DNA from: Candidatus Bathyarchaeia archaeon
GTDB taxonomy: Archaea > Thermoproteota > Bathyarchaeia > Bathyarchaeales > Bathyarchaeaceae
Assembly: GCA_035283685.1 (NCBI GenBank)
Contig: DATETJ010000002.1
Span: 124,001-188,000 of the forward strand
DNA: 64,000 bases
Direction of reading: 5' to 3'
The notes beneath the pieces were generated by a model. It did not search any database and had not been told where the DNA came from. It saw only the letters and a list, made by a program, of their open reading frames with translations. The first letter of the stretch is position 1. The number at the start of each line of letters is the position of its first letter. This document shows positions 35,773 to 43,437 of the stretch, one piece after another. The position numbers and the translations under genes were made by a program.

Positions 35773-35841
35773 ACCCTGTGTTTAACTTATAAATGCTGGG
35801 CTGCTGCTAGTTAGGAAGCAACTAAAAAAGCGTGGTGTCCT

Positions 35842-38094
35842 ATGCCCCGTCCGCGTCCGCTTGGAGCGCGTGTGCTGAAGGCTGTTGCTTCATCGCTGCG
35901 GCTTCAAGTGTTGAACATGCTTCTTGACAGAGGCCCTCTGTCCTACACTGAGATAATGAACATCCTCCATCTGAACCCGAGTAGAGACGCGGGCAGATTC
36001 GCTTATCACTTGAAATCCCTTATGAAGGCTGACTTGATTGAGCCAGACGCAGAGACAAAGAAGTACAGGCTCACAGACCTCGGGCGAATGCTTGTCGATG
36101 TCACAGAAGCCATAGAGGAACAGACGTTCAAACGACGCAGAATGATGGTTCGCACTTCACGCTTGGCGATGGAGGAATTTGACCGCAACAAAATCGCTCG
36201 AGCATTAGTGAAAGAAGCGAAAGTCCCTCAAGACCTAGCGCAGAAAATAGCCCGCGAAACTGAAGCAAAACTCTTGGAAGTAAAAGCCAAATATCTGACT
36301 GCGCCCCTCATCCGCGAATTTGTCAACGCCATTCTCATCGAAAAAGGCTTGGAAGAATACAGGCACAAACTGACGAGGCTTGGACTACCCGTCTACGATG
36401 TTACTCGACTCATTAAGTCGGCTGGCACGGAATCCTCAAGCGTCAAAGCTGTTCACTCGTCGGCAGGCAATTCGGTCATTGAAGAGTACACGCTTCTGAA
36501 CGCTTTACCGCGTGATATAGCAGACGCTCATCTCTCCGGCTCGCTTCATCTAAACAACTTAGGCGTTTGGATTCTCAAGCCAAGCGAGTTTGCACATGAC
36601 GTGAGACACTTCTTTAAGCATGGACTCCAGCTGAATCGACCCCAACAGGCGATAGCCTCTAGCTCCGCTCCCAAAAGCTTGGAAGCGGCACTCGCAACAA
36701 TAACGAACCTGCTAAGAATAACGGCTACCGAAGTTACAGGCGAGCAGTTGCTCGACTACTTCAACGTGTTCCTAGCGCCTTTTATCCGAGGAGTTGAAAC
36801 TGACAGAATCCGAGAGAACTTGCGCCTCTTCTTGATTAACCTTAATCAGACCCTTGCAGACTTTGATTCCGTCTTGCCTGCATCCTTTGCCCTCGAACTT
36901 GTTGTTCCAGACTTCTTGGGAAACGAAAAGGCAATCGGTCCAGAAGGAAAGAGAATCGGCCCCTACGCGGATTATCTTGAGGAGGCACGCCTGTTAGCGA
37001 CGCTGCTCATGGAAACGGTTTTAGAGGAGAGCAGGGACAAGCCGTTCTTTCAACCAAGTCTTGTAATCAAACTGCGACCAAAAGCACTTCAAAGCAAGGA
37101 GTGTGAATCGCTCCTAGTTCTAGCACATCGACTCGCGGCTGAGAGAGGACTGCCATTTTTCGCAAACCTCGGCTGGCGAGAACAAGCATGCGCCTCTTAC
37201 TCGGCGACAGGCACCCGGTTCTCAAATGACTGGAAAGGAGATTGGGAGCTTGACACTCTAAGAACAGGCACCATGGATAGCATCCTAATCAACCTGCCCA
37301 GACTCGCATATGAAAGCGAGCAGAAAGCCCCTCGGTTCTATGAGCGGTTGGACGAACAGCTTGAGATGGCATTGCGAGCCTTGGAGATCAAGTATCAAAC
37401 GATCAAATTGCGTGCCAGAGAAGGGCTACTTCCATTCTTGACTCATAGGGCAGATGGCGAGCAATACGCCAGATTTGAAAACTTCACACGCCTCATCGGA
37501 TTTGTAGGCTTGAACCAAGCCGTAGAATCATTAACGGGCAAACCGCTTCACGAGGAAGCAAAATCAACAGAGACAGCTGAACAGATAATGAAGCACATTC
37601 ATGACTATGTCCGGAAAAGCTTCAGAAAACCCGAAACCCGCGTTGTTACAGCAATGATTCCTTCCCCTAGCGCTGCAAAACGCCTCGCTCAACTAGACAT
37701 TGAACGCTATGGCTGGGCACGGATTCGCGTGAGCGGAAACAAAGAGCAGCCCTTTTACACGGATTTAGTTGCCGTTCCAAAACAAGCTCAGATCACTTTA
37801 GATCTGAGACTCAAAATCGAGGAACGAATGCAGCAACTGGCTTCAGGAGGGCATCTAACCCCGATACAAATCGAAGGCGACGAACCTGACCCTGCCAAAC
37901 TCCTGGGAACCTCCAGAAAACTAGCCTCGGATAGCAGAATCGGCTTACACACTTTTAGTCGCGTCGTTACCTACTGCAACCGTTGCGGGAAGGCGGTTTT
38001 AGGGCAGCCGGCAAAGTGTCCCACCTGTGGTTCAACCGACGCGTTGGCAAGTTACAGTAGGGCTTCAGCAAAATATGCACTGGGCTCAGGTTGA
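35842..38094 (+). CDS. HTH-ATP-cone-NrdD-like protein lacking the glycyl radical (putative nucleotide-sensing regulator)
   Basis: Residues 10-90 form an ArsR-like winged helix (ALRLQVLNMLLDRGPLSYTE type; YHLKSLMKADLIEPD). Residues ~100-190 are an ATP-cone (FDRNKIARALVKEAKVPQD). The rest aligns by eye with class III ribonucleotide reductase, ending in a zinc ribbon CNRC/CPTC. Key catalytic features are missing: the C-terminal RVTGYY of true NrdD reads RASAKY (Gly to Ala near 743), and the DLHIHDLEYF motif reads SLHLNNLGVW. So it is unlikely to be a reductase. With its DNA-binding head and nucleotide-binding cone it may act like NrdR, sensing (d)ATP to control nrdD just downstream (inference). 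TATA box CTTATAAA lies upstream. Confidence 0.75.
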   Translation: MPRPRPLGARVLKAVASSLRLQVLNMLLDRGPLSYTEIMNILHLNPSRDAGRFAYHLKSLMKADLIEPDAETKKYRLTDLGRMLVDVTEAIEEQTFKRRRMMVRTSRLAMEEFDRNKIARALVKEAKVPQDLAQKIARETEAKLLEVKAKYLTAPLIREFVNAILIEKGLEEYRHKLTRLGLPVYDVTRLIKSAGTESSSVKAVHSSAGNSVIEEYTLLNALPRDIADAHLSGSLHLNNLGVWILKPSEFAHDVRHFFKHGLQLNRPQQAIASSSAPKSLEAALATITNLLRITATEVTGEQLLDYFNVFLAPFIRGVETDRIRENLRLFLINLNQTLADFDSVLPASFALELVVPDFLGNEKAIGPEGKRIGPYADYLEEARLLATLLMETVLEESRDKPFFQPSLVIKLRPKALQSKECESLLVLAHRLAAERGLPFFANLGWREQACASYSATGTRFSNDWKGDWELDTLRTGTMDSILINLPRLAYESEQKAPRFYERLDEQLEMALRALEIKYQTIKLRAREGLLPFLTHRADGEQYARFENFTRLIGFVGLNQAVESLTGKPLHEEAKSTETAEQIMKHIHDYVRKSFRKPETRVVTAMIPSPSAAKRLAQLDIERYGWARIRVSGNKEQPFYTDLVAVPKQAQITLDLRLKIEERMQQLASGGHLTPIQIEGDEPDPAKLLGTSRKLASDSRIGLHTFSRVVTYCNRCGKAVLGQPAKCPTCGSTDALASYSRASAKYALGSG

Positions 38095-38300
38095 ATCCAG
38101 AAATATCTCTGTGAGCTGCCCTGACCGCATATTGCTTGTGTTAATTTCTCGAGCAGCTTGTACAGAATTTTAAACAATTTATTCCAAAAAACTTAAGTAA
38201 AAACCATCATGCGTGTTTTGAGCAGGTTTATGTATAAAAAGTTCGTGTCTTCTGTCTAATGTTTTTGAGGTTTTACACAAGAAAGTGTATGTAAGATTAA

Positions 38301-38328
38301 AGACTAACTTAAGCAGTTAAGTTGGTCT
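38301..38328. promoter_or_regulatory. 28-bp palindrome upstream of the glutaredoxin-nrdD operon
   Basis: AGACTAACTTAA (38301-38312), spacer GCAG, then TTAAGTTGGTCT (38317-38328): arms of 12 bp with one mismatch. A related ACTTAAGT occurs at 38190-38198. The site overlaps or follows an A/T-rich TATA candidate (GATTAAAG at 38294-38301), where an archaeal repressor would block initiation. The remaining gap (38095-38300) holds a second TATA-like TATAAAAAG near 38233 and no gene. Confidence 0.55.
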
Positions 38329-38411
38329 TTGCTCCTGTGCTGGTGTTCTCAGTGGTTTCTCATTACACTTCGGCTCCAGATTACTCCAACTCTTCCGAGA
38401 CAAGGAAGATT

Positions 38412-38678
38412 GTGGTCTACACTTCAAACGGTTGCCACAAGTGCAGCATGCTCAAAGATTGGTTGAAAACAGCAAACAGGCAGTTTGAGGAACGCAGCCT
38501 CGAAAACGTGGACGTTATGGCTGAGCTTGTTATGAGAGATGTGGTGGTGCTTTCAGCGCCAGTGCTTGAGGTTGAGAACTCGGTCTACAGTGAGACTGAA
38601 CTCTTTGAGGGCAACGCACTTGCAGTGAGCAGGTTGCAGGAGATTCTGGAGGGCAACGGCAATGGCCGACGATGCTGA
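38412..38678 (+). CDS. Glutaredoxin-like thiol-disulfide protein (NrdH-like)
   Basis: The ~88-residue core starts VVYTSNGCHKCSMLKDWL, with the redox CXXC (GCHKC), and has the cis-Pro region LSAPVLEV. It most likely reduces the ribonucleotide reductase or keeps thiols around it, since its stop overlaps the nrdD start by 17 bases. The start is uncertain. GTG at 38412 gives the family N terminus with AAGGAAG just upstream. Longer frames reach a TTG at 38322, but that codon sits inside the palindrome. Confidence 0.8.
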   Translation: MVYTSNGCHKCSMLKDWLKTANRQFEERSLENVDVMAELVMRDVVVLSAPVLEVENSVYSETELFEGNALAVSRLQEILEGNGNGRRC

Positions 38679-40902
38679 CGGTAACGGCGACGGAGAGCTT
38701 GTTCTTCAACCCTATGAAGAGCTCATGCCCAAGGTCAGAGGCAGCGACGGCTTCATAGTCTCTTGGAACAGAGAAGCAATTGTAAAACAACTTCTCAACG
38801 AAACAAAACTCGCAAAAGAGTTTTTCGACACACCGCCCATGAGCCAAGAAGAAGCTGAAGGAATCGCGTCTGATGTTGAACGCAGAATCCTAAGCCTTCG
38901 ATTGAAGTTTGTAAGCGGGCCCCTAGTTAGAGAACTAGTCAACAACGTTTTGCTCGGCATGTCTAAGGAAAAGCCCGAATACGCTGTGTACCGCAACATC
39001 CTCACAAGAGTCGGTGCGCCGGTCTATGATGCATACCTTATGGATTTGGGTCAAGGCTTCAAAGCCAACGAAAACGCCAACCTCCAGCCAAATGCGGAAA
39101 CCTCCCACAAACGCAAGGCCGATTGGGTTTCAGGTGAAGAATACCTGCTTCTTATGCCGCACAAACTGGCGGATGCTCACTTGTCCGGTGACTTGCACAT
39201 TCACGATTTGGAGTACTTTGGCACCAGACCTTTCTGTCAAGACTGGGACTTGCGTTACTTCTTCTACTATGGCTTAATGCCTGACGGAATAGGCACGCGA
39301 ACCAGCGTGGCCGGTCCAGCCAGACATCCTGAAGTAGCGATCTTACACACAGCCAAGATCTTGGCTTCGGCTCAAACTAACTTTGCAGGCGGAGAAGGCT
39401 TTTACAACTTTCTGGTTTTCTTGGCGCCATTCATGCGAGGAATAGGTTACGACCGCATCAAGCAAATGATGCAGATGATGTTCTTCGAGTACACGCAGGC
39501 ATACGTTGCTCGCGGCGGTCAACTCGTCTTCAGCAATATTCAGGTGCAGCCTGGAGTGCCCGAGCTTTGGCGCAAGGTGCCGGCGGTCGTGCATGGACGA
39601 GTTGGACCAGACTTGTACGGCGACTTTGAAGACGAAGTTCGCATGATGTTCAAAGCTCTGTATGAAGTGGCGTTGAAAGGTGATTTCCGAGGCAAACCCT
39701 TCAACTTCCCCAAACTCGAGAATAGCATCAGCCCCGAGTTTTTCAAGCCTGAATACGATGAGTTTTGGCTGGACGTGCACAGAGTCGTAGCCAAATATGG
39801 AACGCCGTACTTTGACAATTTGCTGCCCCCATACAGAGGCTACGGGAAAGGTGTCTCGTGCTATCAATGCTGCGCCTACTGCTTCGTGGAAACACCGGAG
39901 AGCAGCGCTGACTTTCATGAAAAAGTGAACTTTGTCGACGGCAAACACTTCACTATGGGCAGCTGGCAAGTTGTAAGCTTAAACCTTCCCAGAATGGCTT
40001 ACAAGGCAAATCATAATGACGCCGCGCTTTTCGAGGAAGCCCGTCGACTAATGGACTTGTCCGTGGAGATTTTCAGGATCAAGCGCAAATGGATGGATTT
40101 AATTCGCAAGCGAAACAGGATTCCTTTTGCCACTCAACGCCCCATCGACCCCCGCACAGGTGCGAAGGGACAGCCTGCTATTGATTTTGATGGTTTAGTC
40201 AACACCATTGGATTGGTGGGCGGCAACGAGATGGCTCAGTGGCACACAGGCTATCAACTGCACGAGAACCCTGAGGCAGTCAAAATCCTAGTCAAACTTA
40301 TTCGGGAGATGCAGAAATACAAGAAGGAACTTGAATCGCGGACAGGCGTCAAACTGGCTTTGGCGCGCACGCCAGCGGAGTCGACGGCTCAACGTTTTGC
40401 TATTGCTGACTTGCTTACGCCCGCGTTTCATGACAATGCTCAGAAATTGGCGAAAGGCGATTTGGGCAGGGCTGAACACATGTTGGCTGAAGGTGAGAAA
40501 GACGTGCCCATCTATTACAACAATGGCACGCATGTCTACGTAGGCGCTAACATAGGTTTGCTTGACCGAATTGAAACTGAGCAGAAGTTCTTTCCGTTGT
40601 TGAACGGTGGCAACATGTTTCACGCTTGGCTAGGCGAAGCCCAGCCTGATCCTGAAGCTTTGTACAAGTTGACTAAGCGGATAGCTACTCAGACGCATGT
40701 GGGCTATTATGCTTACACTAAAGACTTGACCATATGCAACCATTGTGGCACGGTTTCGCCTTTAATGAGCAAGTTGTGTCCAAACTGTGGCTCTGACAAT
40801 GTGGAATGGTGGTCGCGTGTCACAGGGTACTATCAAGCTGTGAGCGGCTGGAATGAGGGCAAGAAACGAGAGCTGCAGGACAGATTCAGAGTCATTGTAT
40901 GA
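38662..40902 (+). CDS. nrdD: Anaerobic (class III) ribonucleoside-triphosphate reductase
   Basis: The 746-residue enzyme has an N-terminal ATP-cone (residues ~28-115, VSWNREAIVKQLLNE) that senses ATP/dATP. The glycyl-radical barrel has DLHIHDLEYF, NFAGGEGFYNFLVFLAPF and GVSCYQCCAYCF, with zinc ligands CNHC and CPNC near the end. The radical site is Gly in SRVTGYYQAV (about residue 720). It reduces ribonucleotides to deoxyribonucleotides under anoxia. It needs the activase NrdG, which is not encoded nearby. The gene overlaps the glutaredoxin gene and is followed by a small Cys-rich gene. Confidence 0.96.
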   Translation: MADDADGNGDGELVLQPYEELMPKVRGSDGFIVSWNREAIVKQLLNETKLAKEFFDTPPMSQEEAEGIASDVERRILSLRLKFVSGPLVRELVNNVLLGMSKEKPEYAVYRNILTRVGAPVYDAYLMDLGQGFKANENANLQPNAETSHKRKADWVSGEEYLLLMPHKLADAHLSGDLHIHDLEYFGTRPFCQDWDLRYFFYYGLMPDGIGTRTSVAGPARHPEVAILHTAKILASAQTNFAGGEGFYNFLVFLAPFMRGIGYDRIKQMMQMMFFEYTQAYVARGGQLVFSNIQVQPGVPELWRKVPAVVHGRVGPDLYGDFEDEVRMMFKALYEVALKGDFRGKPFNFPKLENSISPEFFKPEYDEFWLDVHRVVAKYGTPYFDNLLPPYRGYGKGVSCYQCCAYCFVETPESSADFHEKVNFVDGKHFTMGSWQVVSLNLPRMAYKANHNDAALFEEARRLMDLSVEIFRIKRKWMDLIRKRNRIPFATQRPIDPRTGAKGQPAIDFDGLVNTIGLVGGNEMAQWHTGYQLHENPEAVKILVKLIREMQKYKKELESRTGVKLALARTPAESTAQRFAIADLLTPAFHDNAQKLAKGDLGRAEHMLAEGEKDVPIYYNNGTHVYVGANIGLLDRIETEQKFFPLLNGGNMFHAWLGEAQPDPEALYKLTKRIATQTHVGYYAYTKDLTICNHCGTVSPLMSKLCPNCGSDNVEWWSRVTGYYQAVSGWNEGKKRELQDRFRVIV

Positions 40903-41952: not shown

Positions 41953-43437
<1,485 letters not shown>

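Follow-up and report, generated by a model that had tools for sequence, protein, structure and literature searches.

Genes at the locus

The open reading frame at positions 35842–38094 (forward strand, ATG start) of the window, that is, of the whole analysed stretch of 64,000 nucleotides, encodes a 750-aa protein in which a helix-turn-helix (HTH) domain and an ATP-cone are joined to a body resembling the class III ribonucleotide reductase (RNR) NrdD and predicted to be catalytically dead according to Pfam and TIGR profiles, alignment and AlphaFold2 modeling. This protein and its homologues are referred to below as HTH-NrdD. Sequence inspection revealed a TATA-like box, CTTATAAAT (35787–35795, forward strand), 5′ of the gene, which suggests that the gene has a promoter of its own.

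Downstream of HTH-NrdD, the window contains a glutaredoxin-like gene, nrdD, and then pyrB and pyrI. The first of these (38322–38678, forward strand) lies between the HTH-NrdD and nrdD genes and encodes a glutaredoxin/NrdH-like protein (Pfam Glutaredoxin above cut-off); the gene order is the same in relatives, and the TTG start was assigned mechanically, the true start being uncertain. The nrdD gene (38662–40902, forward strand) encodes an active NrdD with the complete set of catalytic residues according to the residue census. The catalytic and regulatory subunits of aspartate carbamoyltransferase are encoded by pyrB (41953–42936, reverse strand; TIGR00670, 399 bits) and pyrI (42967–43437, forward strand; TIGR00240, 195 bits); both genes are conserved as neighbours in the family. 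In addition, the same genome carries two tandem class II nrdJ genes (G000:C4:203398–207211, corresponding to L173 4985–9275), in both of which ATP-cones were recognized by eye.

Domain structure of HTH-NrdD

A preliminary description of this DNA, made from the sequence alone, proposed that the protein consists of an ArsR-like winged helix, an ATP-cone, a class III RNR body and a zinc ribbon. This composition was borne out by the Pfam analysis, in which HTH_5 (ArsR) and DUF7347 at aa 10–86, ATP-cone at aa 101–173 and NRDD at aa 198–740 (E 5e-78) all exceeded the gathering cut-offs, and by the presence of the zinc-binding cysteines. Pfam likewise recognized the domains above its cut-offs in other members, both from Bathyarchaeia and from ammonia oxidisers.

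The ArsR-type winged helix occupies aa 10–90 (35869–36111, forward strand). The HTH_5 score of 25.6 bits exceeds the cut-off of 22, placing the domain with ArsR/SmtB winged helices; the score with the metalloregulator model NF033788 (26.9 bits) is below its cut-off of 55. A profile of the N-terminal part matched the structures of the HlyU, NolR and ArsR regulators (best E 6e-5), and conserved residues typical of DNA binders are retained in the winged helix of the family. The ATP-cone at aa 101–192 (36142–36417, forward strand), which the preliminary description considered to be preserved, is indeed recognized by Pfam with an E value of 2e-7; using the cone alone as a query against PDB sequences gave chance matches only. 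The class III RNR barrel (aa 198–700; 36433–37941, forward strand), devoid of catalytic residues, was identified by Pfam NRDD, Foldseek and the residue census. It is followed by a four-cysteine zinc ribbon of the NrdD type (aa 712–729; 37975–38028, forward strand), whose cysteines are retained in 123–125 of 129 homologues, and by a dead radical loop, SRASAKY (38056–38076, forward strand), identified by alignment with the active neighbour (SRVTGYY).

According to AlphaFold2 models based on the family alignment, the window protein (mean pLDDT 87.7) and a member from an ammonia oxidiser (84.0) both have the winged helix at the N-terminus as well as a cone and a barrel. In the model of the window protein, the winged helix is formed by helices at aa 7–95, with pLDDT of 83–91 across most of it; residues 10–90, where the absence of an HTH fold would have spoken against the preliminary description, thus form a winged helix of the ArsR/HlyU/NolR type. 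The top PDB matches in Foldseek were all class III RNRs (E 5.5e-29 for the window protein and 3.5e-21 for the ammonia-oxidiser member), and the 10-stranded RNR barrel and the zinc-ribbon domain of NrdD were recovered, with Foldseek E values down to 5e-29, TM scores of up to 0.79 by target length and all four cysteines retained. The window protein shares 29% identity with the neighbouring NrdD in a pairwise alignment and scores 289 bits with the NrdD equivalog model TIGR02487, below the cut-off of 326, whereas the active neighbour passes with 514 bits. One HTH-NrdD relative barely reaches this cut-off (327 bits).

Loss of catalytic residues

Alignment with the active neighbour confirmed the motif replacements listed in the preliminary description: GDLHIHD is replaced by GSLHLNN, and SRVTGYY by SRASAKY, so that Ala743 stands at the position of the glycyl-radical Gly (RVxGYY). 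The losses extend beyond that list, since the beta-A Cys (C192 in the neighbour) is replaced by E249, the finger-loop cysteines (C403/C404) by G457/T458, and the NxN flap (N138/N140) is missing from both the window protein and the HTH family. In NrdD, this flap covers the substrate and connects the cone with the radical domain (PMC11226230).

For the residue census, 129 distinct HTH-carrying homologues were aligned with 40 HTH-less NrdDs from the same phylum. The beta-A Cys was present in 40/40 HTH-less NrdDs and in 0/129 HTH proteins, the finger-loop thiyl Cys in 40/40 and 21/129, and the radical Gly in 39/40 and 7/129, respectively, some of the seven being chance alignments. All three residues occur together in 39/40 HTH-less NrdDs; homologues retaining them, which would have contradicted the preliminary description, are absent among the 129 HTH proteins, 102 of which have none of the three. 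In members from ammonia oxidisers, the chain stops 7–16 residues past the last zinc Cys, and the radical loop is therefore largely or wholly deleted. Judging from these sequences, class III RNR catalysis is gone from the whole HTH-NrdD family.

A G-C-R finger loop with Cys at the thiyl position is found in the 21 members mentioned above (including L004, L005 and L006), despite the missing beta-A Cys. The members at L058, L060 and L051 are shortened (535–587 aa); their winged helix is intact and the cone is recognizable, the barrel is eroded, and the zinc ribbon is gone. A 435-aa protein encoded at L062 (4311–5618) shows a weak match to the N-terminus of the family, a DUF7347 winged helix being its sole recognized domain.

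Conservation, distribution and origin

In 14 close pairs of family members, omega was 0.03–0.26; by this measure the HTH-NrdD genes are under purifying selection and are not decaying. The mean pairwise identity within the family is 65% for the cone, its most conserved domain, 54% for the HTH domain, 37% for the body and 23% for the radical loop. In the cone, one column in three reaches a conservation of 90% or more, and active NrdDs from the phylum share many of the residues concerned in their own cones. The bacterial KRDG loop is absent from the family cone, which has V-R-T-S at this place; yet V-R-x-S occurs in most active NrdDs of the same phylum, and nucleotide binding by the HTH-NrdD cone is therefore likely rather than proven.

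The survey of the HTH, ATP-cone and NrdD architecture suggested in the preliminary description was performed on genomes of a single phylum, Thermoproteota. A profile of the HTH domain and the cone gave matches at E < 1e-50 in about 219 of 398 sampled genomes (hand count). In a scan of contigs from GTDB r220, 564 places encoding the family were found; the best 80 come from Bathyarchaeota as far as they are named. The family is widespread, and it includes ammonia-oxidising archaea, groups with cultured representatives.

In a tree of the barrel, 32 HTH proteins clustered in a single group (SH-aLRT 96), separate from the 23 active NrdDs included, the tree resulting from a quick search and containing some long branches. 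Because the HTH proteins and the active NrdDs belong to separate clades, and the two NrdD-like neighbours in the window fall into different old ones, the idea that the window protein arose by recent duplication of its neighbour was rejected. The preliminary description speaks of an NrdD paralogue; on the evidence of the tree and the survey, HTH-NrdD is an ancient, phylum-wide family of single origin rather than a duplicate of the adjacent NrdD restricted to one genome. A search of the open-access literature found no description of the family.

Gene neighbourhood across the family

Gene order was compared in 96 well-flanked loci with at least 2.5 kb of downstream sequence, an RNR gene being counted if located within five genes. 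An RNR gene was found in 30 loci, and pyrB and/or pyrI without an RNR gene in 43 more. Among the remaining 23 loci, pyrB is located upstream on the opposite strand in three (L051, L058 and L060), a same-strand neighbour belongs to the dCTP deaminase cluster in two, and 18 have no RNR, pyrB/pyrI or dCTP deaminase neighbour. The genes pyrB and pyrI are thus the commonest neighbours of the family, with occurrences in Bathyarchaeia and, among the ammonia oxidisers, at some loci (L054, L056, L175). The members of the dCTP deaminase cluster lie directly downstream of HTH-NrdD on the same strand at L046 (8225–8764) and L048; one of them was confirmed by Pfam and TIGR02274.

All RNR genes found beside family members are located downstream on the same strand. 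In the window and in several lineages, active nrdD is directly downstream in this orientation. As for the ammonia oxidisers, class II nrdJ directly follows HTH-NrdD in 29/29 loci from three families, with a gap of 67–542 bp. The lineage was inferred from amoA in the nine genomes tested (9/9 amoA-positive) and from names in the case of contigs. These nine genomes contain nrdJ, and the sole match in a search with the NrdD profile was the HTH-NrdD gene itself, far below the cut-off; they showed no class III reductase. In these genomes, HTH-NrdD therefore cannot serve as an auxiliary subunit of NrdD. In addition, nrdJ is the next gene in G338 and in G019 (L049, L033), the latter genome belonging to the window's own class. 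The presence of nrdD in some lineages and nrdJ in others indicates that the linkage tracks RNR function and not a single enzyme class.

Of 24 genomes checked, one had a match above cut-off to the bacterial RNR repressor NrdR (TIGR00244), which was missing from the other 23; the window genome gave no TIGR00244 match.

Candidate regulatory sites

The preliminary description pointed to a palindrome at 38301–38328 as a site at which binding might be tested. The palindrome itself is real: AAAGACTAACTTAA-GCAG-TTAAGTTGGTCTTT, extending over 38299–38330 before the glutaredoxin-like and nrdD genes, has 14-bp arms with one mismatch and a spacer of 4, and an equally good palindrome appeared in 1/400 shuffles. 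Its role as an operator lacks support from conservation, since it occurs once in the window genome and a similar site was not found in relatives. It was thus rejected as an operator of the family and is a possible lineage-specific operator or hairpin. The search did not find an operator common to the whole family.

In Nitrosopumilaceae-like genomes, a conserved non-coding block, GTARYGGTGTNAAnnnnnTTGA, is located upstream of nrdJ, about 60 bp upstream of its TATA-like box (L052, L053, L174, L192–L211); of 10 genomes searched, 9 carry it at nrdJ. Away from nrdJ, copies were no more frequent than with the reversed control, and there was no Rfam match. As the block is not tied to the HTH-NrdD protein, it was rejected as its operator and kept as a promoter element. 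GATC-rich k-mers upstream of the HTH-NrdD gene in ammonia oxidisers were dropped because part of this signal comes from the preceding gene, namely the end of its coding sequence and its stop codon.

Proposed function and alternative explanations

The frequent adjacency of HTH-NrdD genes to the working DNA-precursor gene of the organism suggests that the protein probably senses nucleotides and controls such genes in place of bacterial NrdR. The family probably represents an NrdD copy turned into a one-component transcription regulator of dNTP and pyrimidine genes, an NrdR analogue for which the enzyme itself provided the material; we infer here that it binds DNA, as well as its ligand, its targets and the direction of control. 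The linkage to two RNR classes, pyrBI and dCTP deaminase, together with the near absence of NrdR, strengthens the case for the nucleotide-sensing regulator put forward in the preliminary description.

According to the proposed mechanism, an ancient NrdD copy would have lost its reductase chemistry and gained an ArsR-type winged helix at the N-terminus. The ATP-cone, and perhaps also the specificity or substrate pockets of the dead barrel, would read the ATP/dATP or NTP/dNTP state. In real class III RNRs, the cone binds ATP or dATP, and the dynamics and oligomeric state change (PMC11226230); in NrdR, the cone switches DNA binding (PMC9110341). In the simplest reading, the family retains both sensor and scaffold from NrdD, and a class III-type dimer with an ATP/dATP-dependent change of oligomer would bring two or more winged helices onto promoters or move them away. 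RNR genes, either nrdD or nrdJ, would be the targets, and probably also pyrBI, dcd and the family member's own gene. Repression at high dATP, rather than activation, would be the obvious guess.

With less confidence, we favour a broader reading: HTH-NrdD proteins may be phylum-wide archaeal regulators made from the enzyme they regulate, in which the allosteric apparatus of a dead class III RNR was retained as a dNTP sensor and joined to a winged helix; the link to RNR would have outlasted the switch to class II enzymes and aerobic life in ammonia-oxidising archaea, and the proteins would also control pyrimidine synthesis and be the main regulator of dNTP homeostasis in archaea lacking NrdR. 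If so, an allosteric enzyme became a transcription factor of its own pathway, and the class III RNR fold was retained in aerobes without any class III RNR.

The prevalence of pyrB and pyrI among the neighbours, with pyrB divergent at L051, L058 and L060, would also fit a regulator whose RNR-like part senses a non-nucleotide cue (redox, or metal via the zinc ribbon), or UTP/CTP for pyrimidine synthesis, the RNR linkage being secondary. This is unlikely, given that the cone is the most conserved domain and nrdJ is the constant partner in the ammonia-oxidiser loci examined. It is rather improbable that HTH-NrdD acts as a non-catalytic allosteric partner that forms a hetero-oligomer with an active RNR and tunes its activity via its own ATP-cone, the winged helix serving for protein contacts or DNA tethering. 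Retention of the NrdD fold and cone, the adjacent RNR genes and the ATP/dATP-dependent shifts in the oligomeric state of class III RNRs (PMC11226230) agree with such a role, but ammonia oxidisers have no NrdD to pair with, only NrdJ of another class, RNR is out of reach at the 43 of 96 loci with pyrBI neighbours, and the winged helix keeps residues typical of DNA binders.

Enzyme chemistry on nucleotides without a glycyl radical, with the winged helix as an accessory, is highly improbable. Although 20/129 members have the thiyl Cys without the beta-A Cys and the Gly, and parts of the barrel, among them N-L-P-R and D619, are conserved, the beta-A Cys is found in no member, the NxN flap is lost, and the body is under weaker constraint than the other large domains, with further erosion at L058 and L060. 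A decaying pseudogene or annotation artefact, to which the lost catalytic residues might point, is refuted by uninterrupted reading frames in hundreds of species, omega well below 1 and high-confidence folds.

Comparison with known systems

The proposed one-component regulator resembles WhiA, an enzyme-derived transcription regulator related to homing endonucleases (PMC3781837), in the reuse of an enzyme fold in a transcription factor. It differs in its parentage: it apparently controls the genes of the same enzyme from which it is derived, and this enzyme also supplies the candidate sensor. With ArsR-family one-component regulators (HlyU, NolR, NmtR) it shares, by profile, the winged helix, which in HTH-NrdD is, however, fused to an ATP-cone and NrdD and remains below the NF033788 cut-off. 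From class III NrdD (TIGR02487, PF13597) come the fold, ATP-cone, zinc ribbon and ancestry; unlike NrdD, the family lacks the radical Gly, the beta-A Cys and the NxN flap, has mostly lost the finger-loop Cys, carries an additional winged helix and occurs in aerobes without any NrdD.

NrdR consists of a zinc ribbon followed by an ATP-cone (about 150 aa), binds DNA via the zinc ribbon, at nucleotide-controlled boxes in front of RNR genes, and has no RNR barrel. HTH-NrdD likewise couples an ATP-cone with a DNA-binding domain, and its genes lie beside RNR genes of any class; by analogy, a response to ATP/dATP would be expected. In contrast to NrdR, it carries an ArsR-type winged helix as its DNA-binding domain and contains a whole dead NrdD; no TIGR00244 match to the HTH-NrdD gene was listed. 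The zinc ribbon listed in the preliminary description is the ordinary one of NrdD and provides no tie to NrdR. NrdR has been reported to be rare in archaea (PMC9110341). One bathyarchaeon has a true NrdR beside a second NrdD (G305:C20:113115–115633), in addition to the putative HTH-NrdD regulator.
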